Below, piece by piece: positions 4,400 to 12,523 of a DNA stretch of 14,504 nt; the stretch's first letter is position 1, and each line of letters begins with the position of its first letter. The position numbers were made by a program, and so were the translations under genes. The stretch is from assembly GCA_007126865.1 (NCBI GenBank), contig SLAN01000065.1:1-14504 (forward strand), in the 5' to 3' direction. The notes below the pieces were generated by a model, which saw only the letters and a program-made list of their open reading frames with translations, searched no databases and had not been told where the DNA came from. The stretch comes from Spirochaetales bacterium. GTDB taxonomy: Bacteria > Spirochaetota > Spirochaetia > DSM-27196 > SKKC01.

Positions 4400-5479
4400 A
4401 TGGAAGGCATGAACGCAGAGTCGACCTCGCGGGCGCGCGGGCTTTCGCATGCTGAGCTCGCCCGATTTCCGAAGGTCGAGTTGCATCGACATCTTGAAGG
4501 CACGTTCGAACTCAATTCCCTCTTTGCAATGTCTCAGCGCAATGGGCTGGATTTGCCGTCCACGTTTGAGGATTTCAAGCGTGAGGTGCAGTTCCCGAAG
4601 GATTCAGAGCCCGATTTTCTTACCTTTCTCAGCAAGTTCAGAAACAACTGGTACCGCAGCCTCGACGATGTTCGAGAGATCACCTACGAGTCCATCAAGA
4701 GTTTCGCGGCTGACGGCCTCCATTACATCGAGGTGCGTTTCTCTCCGGAGCATTTCGCCATACACAACAACTTCGATCGCCGAGAGATCACTCGACTCGT
4801 GATCGACGCCGGCAATGAAGGTGCGCGTGAGGCAGGTGTGCAGCTCCGGTATTTGATCACTTTCAACCGCAGCAAACAGACCGAAGAGGAAATGCTCGCT
4901 CTCTACCGCGAGCTGCGCGATCTCGATATCCCCGAGATCGTCGGAATCGATCTCGCCGGCGACGAGATCAACTATCCTCCCGAACTCTTTCAACGATTCT
5001 TCAAAATGGTGAGAGACGACGGGCGATTTGGCACAACGATTCACGCCGGGGAGGTAACTCACGCCCAGCAAGTATGGGAGGCGCTGACCCTTCTCGGGGC
5101 CGACCGAATCGGTCACGGAACCTCCGCGATCGAAGATGAGAAGCTACAGGAGCGCCTGGCAAGTACCGGCGTGGCGCTCGAACAGTGCATTACCTCCAAC
5201 CGTCAGACCGGGTCGTGGACCGACGAAAAGCACCATCCGTTCGGAGTGCTCTATCGCCGCGGGGTAAATGTGACCTTGAACTCAGATGATCCGACGATTC
5301 AGGACTCGGACTTGACCGACGACTACGAAAAGGCCGTCCGCTATTTCGGTCTGACCGTTGACAATCTGGTGGACATCAACGAACGAACAATCGATTCGAC
5401 ATTCCTCTCCGACGAGGAGAAACGGCGCCTGAAGAGCACCTACGCGAAAGCTGTCGAGAATTTCAAGCAACGCAACTAA
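4400..5479 (+). CDS. add: adenosine deaminase
   Basis: The 359-aa metal-dependent hydrolase converts adenosine (and probably deoxyadenosine) to inosine in purine salvage. The zinc ligands and catalytic residues are all visible. H29 and H31 lie in VELHRHLEG, and H215 and E218 in TIHAGE. H239 lies in DRIGHG, and D296 and D297 in LNSDDP. GIDLAGDE (182-189) is also typical. The segment CITSNRQTGSW (263-273) has the SN-QTG form of adenosine deaminases, against the SN-KL form of adenine deaminases. CITSN replaces the more usual CPTSN. ATG 4400 was chosen because AGAGG (4389-4393) lies 6 nt before it and because of the promoter position. ATG 4409 is the alternative. It is the only purine gene in the window and reads against the surrounding minus-strand genes. 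Confidence 0.93.
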   Translation: MEGMNAESTSRARGLSHAELARFPKVELHRHLEGTFELNSLFAMSQRNGLDLPSTFEDFKREVQFPKDSEPDFLTFLSKFRNNWYRSLDDVREITYESIKSFAADGLHYIEVRFSPEHFAIHNNFDRREITRLVIDAGNEGAREAGVQLRYLITFNRSKQTEEEMLALYRELRDLDIPEIVGIDLAGDEINYPPELFQRFFKMVRDDGRFGTTIHAGEVTHAQQVWEALTLLGADRIGHGTSAIEDEKLQERLASTGVALEQCITSNRQTGSWTDEKHHPFGVLYRRGVNVTLNSDDPTIQDSDLTDDYEKAVRYFGLTVDNLVDINERTIDSTFLSDEEKRRLKSTYAKAVENFKQRN

Positions 5480-5489
5480 ACGCAACTAC

Positions 5490-5619
5490 GAGTTTGTCGG
5501 ACTTCACGTCGGTATTGAATATCGGACGTATACACCGACATCGCAATGCACACCGCTCGGCGAGAATATGCGCCAGGTCCTTCCGATATTCAATTCAGCC
5601 CGTATGTCCAGCGAGCTCC
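5490..5619. repeat. 130-bp imperfect palindromic element, copy 1
   Basis: This element fills the gap between the convergent add and yigZ genes. The left arm begins GAGTTTGTCGGACTTCAC. The right arm ends ATATTCAATTC...TGTCC...GAGCTCC. The best-paired internal arms are ATTGAATATCGGA (left) and its complement TCCGATATTCAAT (right), a perfect 13-bp stem. The outer stem is degraded. It aligns gap-free with copy 2 at 12209-12338, about 90 of 130 bases identical by hand count, with the highest identity in the arms. Its right end touches the yigZ stop codon TAG (5619-5621). TA dinucleotides flank both ends (5487-5488 and 5620-5621). No T-run is present, so it is not a classical intrinsic terminator. 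Confidence 0.8.
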
Positions 5620-6278
5620 TAACGGCGGAGCGAAATCGCCCCTCCCGATAGTTCGAGCAGGTCGGCGTCGAGCTCTTCGACGAGGATGCGTTCCACCGAT
5701 AATCGGATCTGGACCTGCTCGCCGAAATCCTCTCCGACGAGATCTACACCTTCCTGCGTACACCGTTTTCTGACACTGTCGTACAGCTCATACGGTAGTG
5801 AGAGGTGAAAGGTGGTTCGTTCCACGCAGCGTCGCACGTTTGCCTCGGCGATAGCTCGACGGGCCGAATCGCCGTAGGCGCGGACTAATCCGCCGGTACC
5901 GAGCTTCGTCCCCCCGAAGTACCGAACCACTGTTATGAGCGTATTCGTCAGATGAGCGTACCCGATCGCATCGAGAACCGGCCGCCCCGCGGTCCCATGT
6001 GGCTCTCCGTCATCGCTGCACCCTTCATCGTTGGGACTCGGCACTCCCACAGCGTATGCATATACCACGTGTGTCGCCGCAGGGTGCTCATTGCGACGCT
6101 CAGCGATTCGTTCTTTCAGCAGACTGCCATCGGTAAACGGTTCAACACGCCCGATGAACCGCGAGCCGCGATCGTATAACTCCGAGGCGACCACTCCGGT
6201 CGGCTCGGTGTAATAAACCCGATCTCGCGACACGTTGTCGGACTCCACTTCGCCACCAGAATGTTTCACGTGAAACAT
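5619..6278 (-). CDS. yigZ: YigZ/IMPACT family (UPF0029) protein
   Basis: The 219-aa protein carries the UPF0029 N-domain with its signature blocks NDEGCSDDGEPHGTAGRPVL (83-102) and ITVVRYFGGTKLGTGGLVRAY (about 115-135). A smaller C-terminal ferredoxin-like domain follows (about 155-215). The family is related to eukaryotic IMPACT, a regulator of the eIF2-alpha kinase GCN2. Its bacterial role is unsettled, with RNA or ribosome links proposed. The ATG lies 5 nt after the gyrA stop codon, with no strong ribosome site, so it is probably translated by coupling as the third gene of gyrB-gyrA-yigZ. The first six codons (MFHVKH) are formed by the parS palindrome. The first 20 or so residues lie outside the conserved domain. 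GTG codons at residues 11 and 16 are alternative starts. Confidence 0.92.
   Translation of the reverse strand: MFHVKHSGGEVESDNVSRDRVYYTEPTGVVASELYDRGSRFIGRVEPFTDGSLLKERIAERRNEHPAATHVVYAYAVGVPSPNDEGCSDDGEPHGTAGRPVLDAIGYAHLTNTLITVVRYFGGTKLGTGGLVRAYGDSARRAIAEANVRRCVERTTFHLSLPYELYDSVRKRCTQEGVDLVGEDFGEQVQIRLSVERILVEELDADLLELSGGAISLRR
6235..6252 (+). repeat. arm fragment of the 130-bp element inside yigZ
   Basis: TTGTCGGACTCCACTTCG matches the left arm of copy 2 (12213-12230) at 17 of 18 positions. Similarity stops on both sides. It encodes residues of the non-conserved N-terminal extension of YigZ and lies 9 bp from parS. It may be a relic of an element or a protein-binding motif shared with the repeat. 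Confidence 0.5.
6262..6277. promoter_or_regulatory. parS: parS, ParB loading site
   Basis: TGTTTCACGTGAAACA is a perfect 16-bp palindrome and equals the canonical parS sequence recognised by chromosomal ParB in Bacillus and many other phyla. With the flanking A and T it makes an 18-bp palindrome. It spans the start codon and next codons of yigZ, right after gyrA. It is the only perfect copy I found in the window, about 3.7 kb from parB and 6.2 kb from the candidate oriC. Confidence 0.95.
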
Positions 6279-6283
6279 CCGAT

Positions 6284-8719
6284 CTATTCGGCCTCGTCTT
6301 TAGCCACCCTGTCGGCTGCGACTACGAAATCAGGGCGCTCGATATTCACGATCCGCACCCCCGTCGCCTGTCTCCCGTATACGGGAACGGTATCGAGTCG
6401 AAGCTTGATCGTATTCCCCTGGCTCGTAATCACCATTACGTCATCGTCCGGCTCGCCGCCGATCACACCGACAATCTCTCCACTCTTCTCCGATACGGTT
6501 AAAACCTTCTGACCCCGAGTCCCACGTCCGTGGGGAGAAAACTGGTCGAAATCGACGCGTTTTCCGTAGCCGAACTCCGTTACCACCACCAGTTGCCGGC
6601 CCTCACTCACGGTGACCGCACCTGCGAGCTCGTCGTCATTCTGCAGGCGCACTCCTTGCACCCCTCGCGTCGCCCGCCCCATCGCACGCACCTCATCCTC
6701 ATTGAATCGCAGTGCGTATCCTCGGCGGGTTGTCAGTATAAGGTGGCCCGATCCGGTCGTCAGCATCGCCTGCACCAGCTTGTCACCCTCGTCCAGTCGG
6801 ATGGCGACGATGCCACGGGTACGTGCGTTGGCGAAATCACTTGTACGAACCTTCTTCACCACCCCACGGGAGGTCGCCATGAAAACGAAGCTCTCATCGT
6901 CGAACTCCTTGAGGCTTACGACCGTCGCAATCTCCTCGTTAGCCGAAATAGCAATCAGCCCCTTAATGTGAGTCCCTCGCGAAGCCCGCGTTGCCTCCGG
7001 AATCTCGTGGACCTTCATCCAGTACGCCTTACCTTCGCTTGTAACGAACATGATGTAATCGTGAGTGCTCGCAATAAACAGGTGCTTGATGAAGTCGTCG
7101 GTCCGAAGCCTGGTCGACATCGAACCCTTTCCTCCACGTCCCTGGAGTCGATACGCGCTGACCGGCACACGCTTGATATAGCCGTCGTTGCTCATGACAA
7201 CGACCATGTCTTCCTTCTGGATCAGGTCCTCGATATTGATTTGCTCGATTTCGTCCGGAACAATATCGGTTCGCCTTTCATCACCGTGTTTCTCGGCAAT
7301 CTCCACCGTCTCGCTTCGCACAACACCGAGGATCTTCTCCTCGCTCGCAAGCAGCTCCTTGAGATACGCAATCAGAGCGCGCACTTCCTCGAGCTCTTCG
7401 ACGATCTTCCGCGTCTCCAGGCTGGTCAGTTTCTGCAGCCGCATGTCGAGAATCGCCTGTGCCTGTGCTTCGGAGAGCTCGAAGCTCTCCATGAGTCCGC
7501 TTCGCGCGACCTCGACATTCTCGCTCTCGCGAATGAGTCGAATGACTTCGTCGATATTATCGAGTGCGATCTTCAAGCCGATGAGGATGTGTTCGCGCTC
7601 CTCGGCTTTCCGCAGATCGTACCTGGTGCGGCGAATGACCACATCCTTGCGATGGTCGATGAAGCACTGAATCAGCTCCTTGAGATTGAGCAGCTTCGGT
7701 TTTCCGTCGACAAGCGCCAGGGAGTTCACGTTGAAGTTCGTCTGTAGCTGCGTATTCTGAAAGAGATGGTTGAGCACAATCTTCGGGCTCGCTCCCTTCT
7801 TGAGCTCAATCACCACCCGCATCCCGTTGCGGTCGCTCTCATCGCGCAGATCCGAGATGCCCTCGATCTTCCTGTCCTGGACGAGCTCGGCGATGCGCAT
7901 GACCATCGAAGCCTTGTTCACCATGTAGGGGATCTCGTGAACGATGATCACGTCCTTGCCGGTTTTCGTCGTCTCGATGGTGAACCGAGCCCGCACCGGA
8001 ATACGCCCCTTACCTGTGCGGAAGGCATCACGGATTCCTCGCCGACCATAGATAATGCCACCGGTCGGAAAGTCCGGCCCCTGAATGTACTGCATGAGCT
8101 CGTCGACATCCGCCTGCGGATTATCGATAAGGTGACAGATCGCATCTCCGATCTCCCGCAGGTTGTGCGGCGCCATGTTCGTAGCCATTCCGACGGCGAT
8201 ACCGTTGGCTCCGTTGGCCAGCAGATACGGAAAGGCGGCCGGAAGCACCACCGGCTCCTGCAGCGAGTCGTCGTAGTTCGTGGTGAAGTCGACGGTCTCT
8301 TTCTTGATGTCCCGGGTCATTTCCTCGGCGATCTGGTCGAGTTTCGCCTCGGTATAGCGCATTGCAGCGGGTGAGTCACCGTCGACCGAGCCGAAGTTCC
8401 CCTGTCCGCGAATAATCGGGTAGCGCATGCTGAATGTCTGCGCCATTCGGACAAGCGCGTCGTACACCGACTGATCGCCGTGCGGATGGTATTTACCGAG
8501 AACGTCACCAACAATACGCGCACATTTACGACTCGGGCGATCGTACCGAAGCCCCATCTCATCCATGGAATAAAGCACACGCCGATGAACCGGCTTGAGC
8601 CCGTCGCGCACGTCCGGCAACGCCCGCGAGACGATTACGCTGAGCGCATAGTTGAGAAAACTATCTTTTACCTCGTCCTCTATAGCTACAGGTATAACGT
8701 TTCCGCGGTTGTCCGCCAT
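6284..8719 (-). CDS. gyrA: DNA gyrase subunit A
   Basis: The 811-aa subunit cleaves and rejoins DNA in the A2B2 gyrase, which introduces negative supercoils ahead of forks and transcription. The breakage-reunion domain begins with the family N-terminus and keeps Escherichia coli numbering. The catalytic tyrosine is Y122 in AAMRYTE and the quinolone region is [10 protein letters not shown] at 78-87. The C-terminal beta-pinwheel carries a GyrA box, QGRGGKG, at 526-532; this separates it from ParC. Repeated pinwheel blades run to the end. Position 83 is glutamine where E. coli has serine, while D87 is kept. AAAGGAG (8730-8736) lies 10 nt before the ATG. The gene follows gyrB by 44 nt and precedes yigZ by 5 nt, so the three form one operon. 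Confidence 0.99.
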
Positions 8720-8763
8720 GGTAGAGTATCTCCTTTGGGGTGTGTGTACGCCGGAGTCCCGGT

Positions 8764-10683
<1,920 letters not shown>

Positions 10684-10714
10684 TTACTCAATGTACGGAT
10701 TTCGCGACAGTGCC

Positions 10715-10743
10715 ATTATAGAAACTTTCCGCTTCGTGGTAAA
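10715..10743 (-). promoter_or_regulatory. sigma70-type promoter of gyrB-gyrA-yigZ
   Basis: On the minus strand, TTTACC (10738-10743), a 17-bp spacer and a perfect TATAAT (10715-10720) lie upstream of gyrB. Initiation near 10708 would leave a leader of about 27 nt. Gyrase promoters are often supercoiling-sensitive, but nothing here shows that directly. Confidence 0.75.
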
Positions 10744-10784
10744 GCTACCCCCGACTCACACGTGCATGCAGACCTCGGTGCGAC

Positions 10785-10813
10785 TTGAATGAGCAGCGCC
10801 TATCAAATACACT
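10785..10813 (+). promoter_or_regulatory. sigma70-type promoter of dnaA
   Basis: TTGAAT (10785-10790), a 17-bp spacer and TACACT (10808-10813) precede dnaA by about 27 nt. The start would be near 10820. I found no good DnaA box over this promoter, so DnaA autoregulation is not visible here. Confidence 0.65.
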
Positions 10814-10840
10814 CCTCTCTCGGTCATGGAGTAGGTAGCT

Positions 10841-12208
10841 ATGGAAGGTGACACGCTCGGCTATTCACTGTTCTGGGATGAAGCAATCAATCAGCTTCGG
10901 TCGGAAATCTCGGAGCAGGAGTTCTCTATGTGGTTCTCCGGAATGAGCTATGTCGGCTGTAACGAGGAGGCCATTACCGTTTCCGTACCGAGCTACTTCT
11001 ACCGGGACCAGGTGAAGCAGCGCTACCTCACCCGAATCGAAGAGAAGTTACAGGAGCTCTCCGGCCGGAACTTCTCACTCGACTTCGAGATCCGACCTGC
11101 CAGGCAAAGCGAAAAACCGGTTCCCACACAGCCGACCACTCAACCGAAACAGAATGCGAAACGGGGAAAGCCCCACCCCGAGCTGCGACCCGAGTATACT
11201 TTTGAAAATTTCGTTATTGGAGAAAATAATAGTTTTGCGGCTAATGCAGCCATGGCGATCGCGAGAAATCCCGGAACCGGTTACAATCCGTGCCTCGTCT
11301 ACGGCGGTGTCGGACTTGGAAAAACACATCTGGTCCAGAGTATCGGCAACTCGGTACATCACGAGTTTCGTGACCTGAAGGTCGTCTACGTTACCGCGGA
11401 AAACTTCACGAACGAGTTCATTCGAAGTATCCGCGAGAAGAAGATGCACCAGTTCAAGAACAAGTATCGTTACGCCGACGTGTTGCTCATCGACGATATC
11501 CACTTTCTGCAGAAGAAGACCGAAACCCAGGAAGAGCTCTTCCATACATTCAATGCGCTCTACGACGCGAACAAACAGATGGTATTCACCTGCGACAGAC
11601 CGGTGAGCGAACTGCGCGAGCTTGCCGACCGGCTCCGCAGTCGCTTCGAGCGCGGACTGAACGTCGATCTGCAACCGCCGAGCTACGAAACGCGATTTGC
11701 CATTCTGAAGAAGAAGATGGAGGCCGCCGGCGTTCAAATTCCCGAAGAGGTAATCAGTCTTATCTCGGCAAATGTCACGACGAACGTTCGCGACCTCGAA
11801 AGCGCGTTGACAAAGCTTATAGCCTATGCCGAGCTCGTCAACAAGAACATCACCCTGGATATAGCAAAGCAGCAGCTCAAGGACGTGTTCTCCAATCCGA
11901 AGCAGAGCAATATCAGCATCGATCTGATTCAACGACAGGTGGCAGAGTACTTTGGACTGTCAACGAACGATTTGAAGGGAAAGAAGCGCACACAGGTCAT
12001 AACGTTTCCCCGCCAGCTGGCGATGTACATAACTCGCGAAATCACCGAGTACTCAACCACGGAAGTCGGCCTCGAGTTCGGCGGGCGGGACCACACAACG
12101 GTAATGCATGCCTGTCAACGTATCGAGAGCAGAATGCGTACGGATGCAACTCTCGAACCGACCATTCAGAACATAATCCGAACCATCAAAGAGAAGTCTG
12201 CACGGTAG
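10841..12208 (+). CDS. dnaA: chromosomal replication initiator DnaA
   Basis: This 455-aa AAA+ protein binds DnaA boxes and melts oriC. Domain I spans about 1-85 (WDEAINQLRSEISEQEFSMWF at the start) and a Gln/Pro-rich linker lies at about 86-113. The AAA+ core has Walker A GGVGLGKT (155-162), Walker B LLIDDIHFL (215-223) and the arginine-finger region LADRLRSRFERG (261-272). The C-terminal helix-turn-helix carries the DnaA signature GGRDHTTVMHACQRI (414-428), which reads TTATNCACA sites. Length is normal. GGAG (10828-10831) lies 9 nt before the ATG. Its TAG stop codon (12206-12208) directly abuts the 130-bp repeat copy 2, and no T-run terminator follows. Confidence 0.99.
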   Translation: MEGDTLGYSLFWDEAINQLRSEISEQEFSMWFSGMSYVGCNEEAITVSVPSYFYRDQVKQRYLTRIEEKLQELSGRNFSLDFEIRPARQSEKPVPTQPTTQPKQNAKRGKPHPELRPEYTFENFVIGENNSFAANAAMAIARNPGTGYNPCLVYGGVGLGKTHLVQSIGNSVHHEFRDLKVVYVTAENFTNEFIRSIREKKMHQFKNKYRYADVLLIDDIHFLQKKTETQEELFHTFNALYDANKQMVFTCDRPVSELRELADRLRSRFERGLNVDLQPPSYETRFAILKKKMEAAGVQIPEEVISLISANVTTNVRDLESALTKLIAYAELVNKNITLDIAKQQLKDVFSNPKQSNISIDLIQRQVAEYFGLSTNDLKGKKRTQVITFPRQLAMYITREITEYSTTEVGLEFGGRDHTTVMHACQRIESRMRTDATLEPTIQNIIRTIKEKSAR

Positions 12209-12338
12209 GAGCTTGTCGGACTTCACTTCGGAATTGAATACTGGGCGCATACCCTTGCGCGAACATGCATTTTTAAGGGCGGGAGTATGCAATAGGTCGT
12301 GCCAATATTCAATTCTGCCCACCTGTCCGACAAGCTCC
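12209..12338. repeat. 130-bp imperfect palindromic element, copy 2
   Basis: The outer arms AGGAGCTTGTCGGAC (12207-12221) and GTCCGACAAGCTCCT (12325-12339) are perfect 15-bp inverted repeats. A 9-nt mismatched patch follows. Inner arms GAATTGAATA and its near complement, then GCATAC (12247-12252)/GTATGC (12285-12290) and CCCTT/AAGGG, extend the hairpin towards a short central loop. As RNA this would be a very long stem. Asymmetric positions (TTCACTTCGG on the left, CTGCCCACC on the right) let it be oriented the same way as copy 1. The element begins at the last bases of the dnaA stop codon. Confidence 0.85.
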
Positions 12339-12339
12339 T

Positions 12340-12350
12340 GGCTTGTCGGA
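12340..12350 (+). repeat. truncated extra arm of the 130-bp element
   Basis: GGCTTGTCGGA directly follows copy 2 and repeats 10 of 11 bases of its left arm start. Similarity then ends. It could be the stub of a second element inserted side by side or a duplicated end. Confidence 0.45.
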
Positions 12351-12400
12351 AAAACTCCGGGATACCACATACGCCGGACGTGAATCGATTGGGCATATCG

Positions 12401-12409: not shown

Positions 12410-12523
12410 TCGGCTTCCGCCGGCCCGAAGAATCGAGTGTCAGTGGACAGTGTGGAACACCTCTGCATATTACGCCGTAGTTGTTCATGACGCAGGCATC
12501 GACTGTCACAGGAATTACGGCGG

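Follow-up and report, generated by a model that had tools for sequence, protein, structure and literature searches.

Two palindromes beside stop codons

The window analysed here, the whole stretch of 14,504 nucleotides, is contig C32 of a draft spirochaete genome (G000; 1.88 Mb in 343 contigs, ~65% complete), which we compared with its congeners G001 and G002 and with G036, a bin from another family. It carries genes that we take, in part following the earlier note, to be add, yigZ, gyrA, dnaA and a flavoprotein gene, together with two imperfect palindromes of 131 bp each, one in the add/yigZ gap (copy 1) and one between dnaA and the flavoprotein gene (copy 2). The earlier note had described these as two ungapped palindromes of 130 bp with about 90/130 identical bases and with arms better conserved than centres; ungapped alignment gave 91/132 overall, 73/94 in the arms and 17/37 in the centre, so that only the length needed correction, to 131 bp. 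The perfect 15-bp outer arm that had been reported for copy 2, AGGAGCTTGTCGGAC, was recovered on both strands, the sequence at the element ends is GGAGYTTGTCGGAC, and the first base of copy 1 is C, not G. Each palindrome adjoins a TAG stop codon, as had been observed: the dnaA reading frame (10841-12208) ends in TAG at 12206-12208, and yigZ, on the minus strand, ends in TAG at 5619-5621, while the add stop is a TAA at 5477-5479 that does not adjoin copy 1. The features of both copies and of two possible remnants are as follows.

5487..5488, no strand: target TA on the left of copy 1, present as a single CTAAC in G002 and G001
5489..5619, plus strand: copy 1 core, subfamily B-like and diverged (nhmmer E 1.9e-38, with a profile that includes copy 1)
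5620..5621, no strand: target TA on the right of copy 1, which, read on the minus strand together with the last base of the element (5619), gives the TAG stop of yigZ
6235..6255, plus strand: probably the decayed remains of another copy, in the yigZ/gyrA gap (profile E only 0.28)
12206..12207, no strand: left target TA of copy 2, which with the first G of the element forms the dnaA TAG stop
12208..12338, plus strand: copy 2 core, subfamily A
12208..12221, plus strand: outer terminal inverted repeat of copy 2, left
12222..12228, plus strand: left spacer of copy 2, TTCACTT, unpaired and conserved about as well as the arms
12229..12244, plus strand: inner inverted repeat of copy 2, left
12302..12317, minus strand: inner inverted repeat of copy 2, right
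12318..12324, plus strand: right spacer of copy 2, unlike the left spacer and conserved less
12325..12338, minus strand: outer terminal inverted repeat of copy 2, right
12339..12340, no strand: right dinucleotide TG of copy 2, read from the flanking sequence, probably an altered TA
12340..12358, no strand: candidate fused end fragments, GGCTTGTCGG...AAACTCC, read by eye, possibly from another copy

The orthologous yigZ/gyrA gap of G002 holds a 77-bp relic with a firmer profile match (E 1.1e-4). Copy 2 lies between dnaA and what we take to be a TTATCCACA box near 12520, spotted by eye, and so may border the replication origin. An Rfam scan of the window returned tRNA only, and a tRNA-Ser (TGA) is present at 9-97 on the minus strand.

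A family of dispersed copies

A BLAST search of G000 with copy 2 returned 68 matches at E<=10, a figure that counts copy 2 itself and its palindromic self-matches. The closest of the other copies was 98% identical over 133 bp (E 1.2e-60), and five others matched at 91-98% identity along almost the whole element, in keeping with the earlier view that the palindromes are too ordered for chance. Further copies, for which a profile search had been suggested, were abundant: with a profile built from 16 copies, and partial copies taken at E<=0.01, we counted at least 70 full-length copies (23 in G000, 10 in G001, 35 in G002 and 2 in G036) and at least 31 partial copies on 96 stretches totalling 317 kb, both being lower bounds because not every match was retrieved. 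A further end pair spanning 131 bp, at G002:C317:3972-4102, lies outside the 70.

The family is narrowly distributed, with matches in 4 of 61 genomes, namely the four just listed. An exact scan for the left end across the named genomes of 84,980 species matched 46 stretches. Apart from chance-like hits, the left end was found only in three spirochaete MAGs (PUOG B1Sed10_148R1, SLIN CSSed165cm_200 and PUPD B1Sed10_113R1); 14 matches fell in unrelated taxa, and these we take to be chance from their profile hits, which were absent at E<=0.01 for 11 and weak for the remaining 3 (E 0.003-0.0042, one over ~100 bp). With one subfamily-A copy as query, a phylum sample of 392 genomes gave a match in one, G000 itself, the congeners apparently not having been drawn into that sample. 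No stretch among the viral contigs matched the element, and with one copy as query for each there was no match in the plasmids, phages or E. coli genomes. The G036 contig has a 2-kb match to G001 at 71% and only short ones to other genomes, and its copies would fit either transfer or mis-binned contigs. Judging from sediment-like MAG sample names, the host spirochaetes apparently come from soda lakes. Searches of the literature by text, rather than by sequence, returned no account of this family.

At each end of the element a 14-bp outer and a 16-bp inner inverted repeat flank a 7-bp spacer, whose sequence on the left is unlike that on the right. We sorted the 54 copies of exactly 131 bases into subfamilies A (n=13) and B (n=34), with 7 set aside. 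The two consensus sequences differ at 33 positions, 4 of them in the stem, where they amount to two intact exchanges (5/127, CG to TA; 35/97, TA to CG). Changes from the subfamily consensus affect 1.1-4.4% of arm positions, 2.2% (A) and 3.8% (B) of the left spacer, 3.3% (A) and 8.0% (B) of the right spacer, and 7.6% and 13.2% of the centre in the two subfamilies. The left spacer stays conserved although it does not pair, as would be expected of a protein-binding site more than of paired RNA.

The copies show several forms of decay. At six sites a copy is present in two species; the most similar pairs differ at 3 and 6 of 131 bases and the remaining sites by more. At one shared site (G000:C234:4107 and G002:C260:51516) arms and flanks are common to both copies and the centres are very different, a pattern that either two independent insertions or a replaced centre would produce; the left flank there resembles, by eye, the 3' end of a tRNA. 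Short forms made up of the two ends only occur at G001:C10:309-376, G002:C105:10665-10710 (46 bp) and G002:C85:3010-3054 (45 bp), and one short form stands at the place of the full G000 copy on C122; these suggest that the centre of the palindrome was lost in place. At G000:C236:5488-5758 a copy is interrupted by another palindrome with ends GTGTCTCGAAGATTATGGATGG, and a motif like it adjoins, by eye, the copy on G002:C73. This palindrome looks like a second MITE family.

Empty sites, target choice and probable mode of transposition

Neither window copy is present at its orthologous place in G001 or G002. For copy 1, G002 aligns to the window through 5472 and resumes at 5618 with only 2 bases between, the left junction in G000 being imperfect owing to a tandem repeat of ~10 bp just outside the element; for copy 2, the dnaA-orthologous frames end at the same place in TAG (G002) and TAA (G001). 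We tried 30 sites for empty alleles, the two in the window and 28 elsewhere, of which 14 were informative; the other 16 had no spanning match or a junction that was unresolvable. A single dinucleotide in the empty allele, with one on each side in the occupied allele, was found at C271, C125 and C224 (TA), at C276 (TG), at C140 and C188 (GA) and at C79 (CG in G002, CT in G001), so that four resolved empty sites are non-TA in the congener. Five more sites (C22, C205, C315, G001:C117 and C353) are consistent with TA but less exact; at G001:C117 an older relic seems to be present in the congeners, and the copy may be a re-insertion next to one. The two window palindromes are copies of a mobile insertion, and the empty-site comparison gives a target-site duplication of 2 bp, usually TA.

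The choice of target is apparent from the flanks. Across 139 ends the flanking dinucleotide is TA at 47, CA at 40, TG at 12, CG at 10 and others at the rest, so TA is retained at only about a third of the ends. C or T precedes the dinucleotide at 88% of 118 ends of well-scoring copies, compared with 34% of intergenic TAs. Where both flanks are present, 49 of 69 sites have Y..R flanks, against 155 of 2,070 intergenic TAs, and 18 of the 69 have C..G flanks, against 17 of 2,070. Across the family, C is often found as the outer base of the flanking TA (read as CA or TG), and CTAG is rare between genes, at those 17 of 2,070 TAs. A bias resembling very-short-patch repair and acting on CTAGG might produce both the frequent CA/TG flanks and the rarity of CTAG.

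The combination of TA duplication with a Y..R and CTAG preference is a signature of IS630/Tc1-mariner transposition. Members of the IS630 family are described as inserting at TA with duplication of that dinucleotide (PMC2170065), and a preference of IS630 for CTAG is in print as the title of a paper cited there. The element is shorter than 200 bp, has terminal inverted repeats, occurs as dispersed copies with insertion polymorphism and is bordered by a target-site duplication, all of which are characters of a MITE. We therefore assign a probability of roughly 0.88 to the reading that it is a non-autonomous MITE moved by IS630/Tc1-mariner-type transposition with a partner transposase supplied in trans. 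The family is new, and it belongs to a well-known kind of bacterial parasite DNA. Of the two names that the earlier note had offered jointly, REP and MITE, it is the second that holds.

A plausible cycle would begin with the putative transposase binding the outer and inner boxes at both ends and excising the element, which would then insert at a TA, preferably Y-TA-R and best of all CTAG, with duplication of the TA. Entry of a G-first element into TAA or TAG leaves TAG, and insertions into stop codons need then do no harm, even where convergent stops overlap, as they do at add/yigZ. Inserted copies subsequently drift, losing pairing and, by deletion, the centre of the palindrome, and selection against hits in genes, together with target preference and the tolerance of stop codons, would leave many copies at the 3' ends of genes.

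The partner itself may have been lost or may lie in unassembled parts of the genomes. Among the matches listed, no transposase with matching ends was found in the incomplete drafts of G000 and G001. Within the genus, PF13358 transposases number two, both in G002, and their ends are unlike those of the element; across the order, 7 of 46 genomes were positive with at least 13 loci, and a scan of 12 of the 13 listed loci, both G002 loci included, revealed no matching end pair around the transposase. Inward-facing ends 600-3000 bp apart with at most one mismatch were listed in G002 on C252, C260 and C265. As candidates for an autonomous element we rejected all three, each being two separate full copies around a gene that is not transposase-like (Pfam: SIMPL, PAP2_3 and no family). 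A pair of ends 1.7 kb apart on G001:C18, with 2 mismatches each, was likewise rejected as a partner, since it encloses ordinary genes and no transposase; one of these resembles, by eye, a flagellar sigma factor. Genes enclosed by separate copies 300-3500 bp apart were, by eye, not transposase-like.

Stop codons, gene context and rival readings

The palindromes abut TAG because the target TA and the first G of the element together rebuild that codon: insertion of a G-first element after the TA of TAA or TAG yields TAG, on either strand. At add/yigZ the empty allele, CTAA, carries both stops; insertion left TAG for yigZ, and the stop of add is now found a few bases away from copy 1, inside the tandem repeat of ~10 bp. 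Under strict boundaries, with copies that have degenerate ends left out of the count, a called gene stops at the junction in 16 of 70 copies, in 1 of these 16 at both ends; the stop codon is TAG throughout in 12 of the 16 and TAA in 4. This exceeds the 5.1% expected from TA sites (p 4e-7) and also the 8.4% expected when target classes are weighted (p 2e-4; the weighting depends on a single CTAG stop among 109). The stop pattern is thus explained in kind by target preference and tolerance, and in number partly.

Gene context was classified with a home-made codon-usage caller, which misses the flavoprotein gene and so scores copy 2 as 'edge', making the context counts approximate. The 53 classifiable copies comprise 27 in codirectional, 18 in convergent and 8 in divergent gaps, compared with 69, 22 and 24 among 115 control gaps; of the other copies among the 70, 11 are at edges and 6 are inside called genes, 5 of these 6 overlapping only by way of the predicted gene start. 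The earlier statement that the palindromes lie only in convergent gaps is accordingly true of the two window copies as placed and not of the family, whose convergent excess has odds of 2.2 (p 0.050). The same excess has been described in pneumococcus for RUP, BOX and IS elements, where it is read as tolerance of parasites (PMC3049150).

A stronger form of this argument would make the element adapted to stop codons: a YTAR-seeking target and G-first ends would permit residence in the stops of essential genes and in overlapping convergent stops, with both stops rebuilt and a hairpin added between the messages, and some hairpins would then be kept by selection as gene separators. We regard this as unlikely. 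What the MITE reading does offer is that a TA-targeting, G-first element can sit harmlessly in housekeeping stop codons such as those of dnaA and add/yigZ, which accounts for the striking yet misleading appearance of palindromes that abut TAG in convergent gaps.

Very improbable, too, is a cis-acting RNA, in which a hairpin transcribed from either side would end or stabilise convergent mRNAs and be kept for that purpose; the earlier note had raised it both as a bidirectional transcript end and as a structured RNA. Copy 2 folds strongly on both strands (z -6.6 and -6.3), copy 1 less so (plus strand, z -3.7; minus strand, z -1.0), and the convergent excess given above could be counted in its favour. 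The paired stem substitutions that the earlier note had thought worth seeking do exceed chance, and as further copies are also many, the outcome that the note had named as refuting did not arise: in 63 aligned copies stem covariation was 0.095, compared with 0.073 for shuffled and at most 0.042 for slid alignments and above all 500 shuffles, and there were 35 double-changed stem cells against 12.8 in shuffles, above every shuffled and slid version. However, the A/B subfamily switch, with its two positions, accounts for 30 of these 35 cells; each of the remaining 5 comes from one sequence, at five pairs in all. Since transposition itself needs matching ends, such a switch requires no RNA function and is equally well explained by transposition. 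Within the 47 copies of A and B, 65 single changes break a pair and 24 leave G-U, while 2 double changes pair and 1 is unpaired, against a chance expectation of 1.6. The two closest two-species pairs, with their 3 and 6 differences, show no compensation, copies are lacking from orthologous gaps in congeners, and copies also occupy codirectional and divergent gaps. Six or more T in 10 nt were found at 1 of 139 ends; a scan for intrinsic terminators (hairpin and T-run, loops of 3-8 bases) gave none near copy 2 and one terminator-like match near copy 1, at 5424-5440, outside the element. Because the doubles are mostly one subfamily switch and single changes mostly break pairs, an RNA role is not supported in either form.

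The MITE reading was weighed against two further alternatives, both of which we consider very improbable. A REP/BIME-like repeat mobilised by a RAYT (Y1 tyrosine) transposase would also be palindromic, mostly extragenic and present in tens of copies per genome, but a Y1 transposase is present in none of the three drafts G000, G001 and G002 (it occurs in G004, G005 and G036), and an element of 131 bp that has long terminal repeats and duplicates a TA-type dinucleotide is unlike the REP hairpin, which is given as 20-40 bp (PMC3733652). Alternatively, an AGGAG...CTCCT element might enter between Y and R through an unknown enzyme and without target duplication, which would explain C276 without any mutation and would fit the better conservation of the inner base beside the core (A at 69% at -1) than of the outer one (T at 52% at -2); at a TA target, however, a TA duplication gives the identical sequence, and IS630 transposition as known, with its CTAG preference, suffices with no new enzyme.

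As a MITE, the family adds to those described a well-resolved case from uncultured spirochaetes, documented by its empty sites, its subfamilies and its decay forms. Among known systems it can be compared with RUP of pneumococcus (107 bp), by description also a small MITE with TA duplication and reported enrichment in convergent gaps (PMC2229807, PMC3049150); for RUP a partner with similar ends, IS630-Spn1, has been proposed, whereas none was found here, and the host is another. ERIC/IRU (127 bp) and Correia/NEMIS (107-155 bp) share its size, paired stem, terminal TA and target-site duplication (PMC2229807). ERIC probably differs in sequence, as a subfamily-B copy had no match in the E. coli collection, where ERIC occurs (word size 11, E<=1e-5), and effects on mRNA were not in evidence here. 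BOX of pneumococcus likewise supplies the stop of an adjacent gene, with 36 annotated cases (PMC3049150); its ends are likened to ISSpn2, whereas the spirochaete element rebuilds the stop from TA and its own first G. The Rickettsia palindromic elements, at 105-146 bp (PMC2229807), are palindromes of similar length that are also fused in frame inside genes, whereas 6 of 70 copies of the spirochaete element overlap a called gene.
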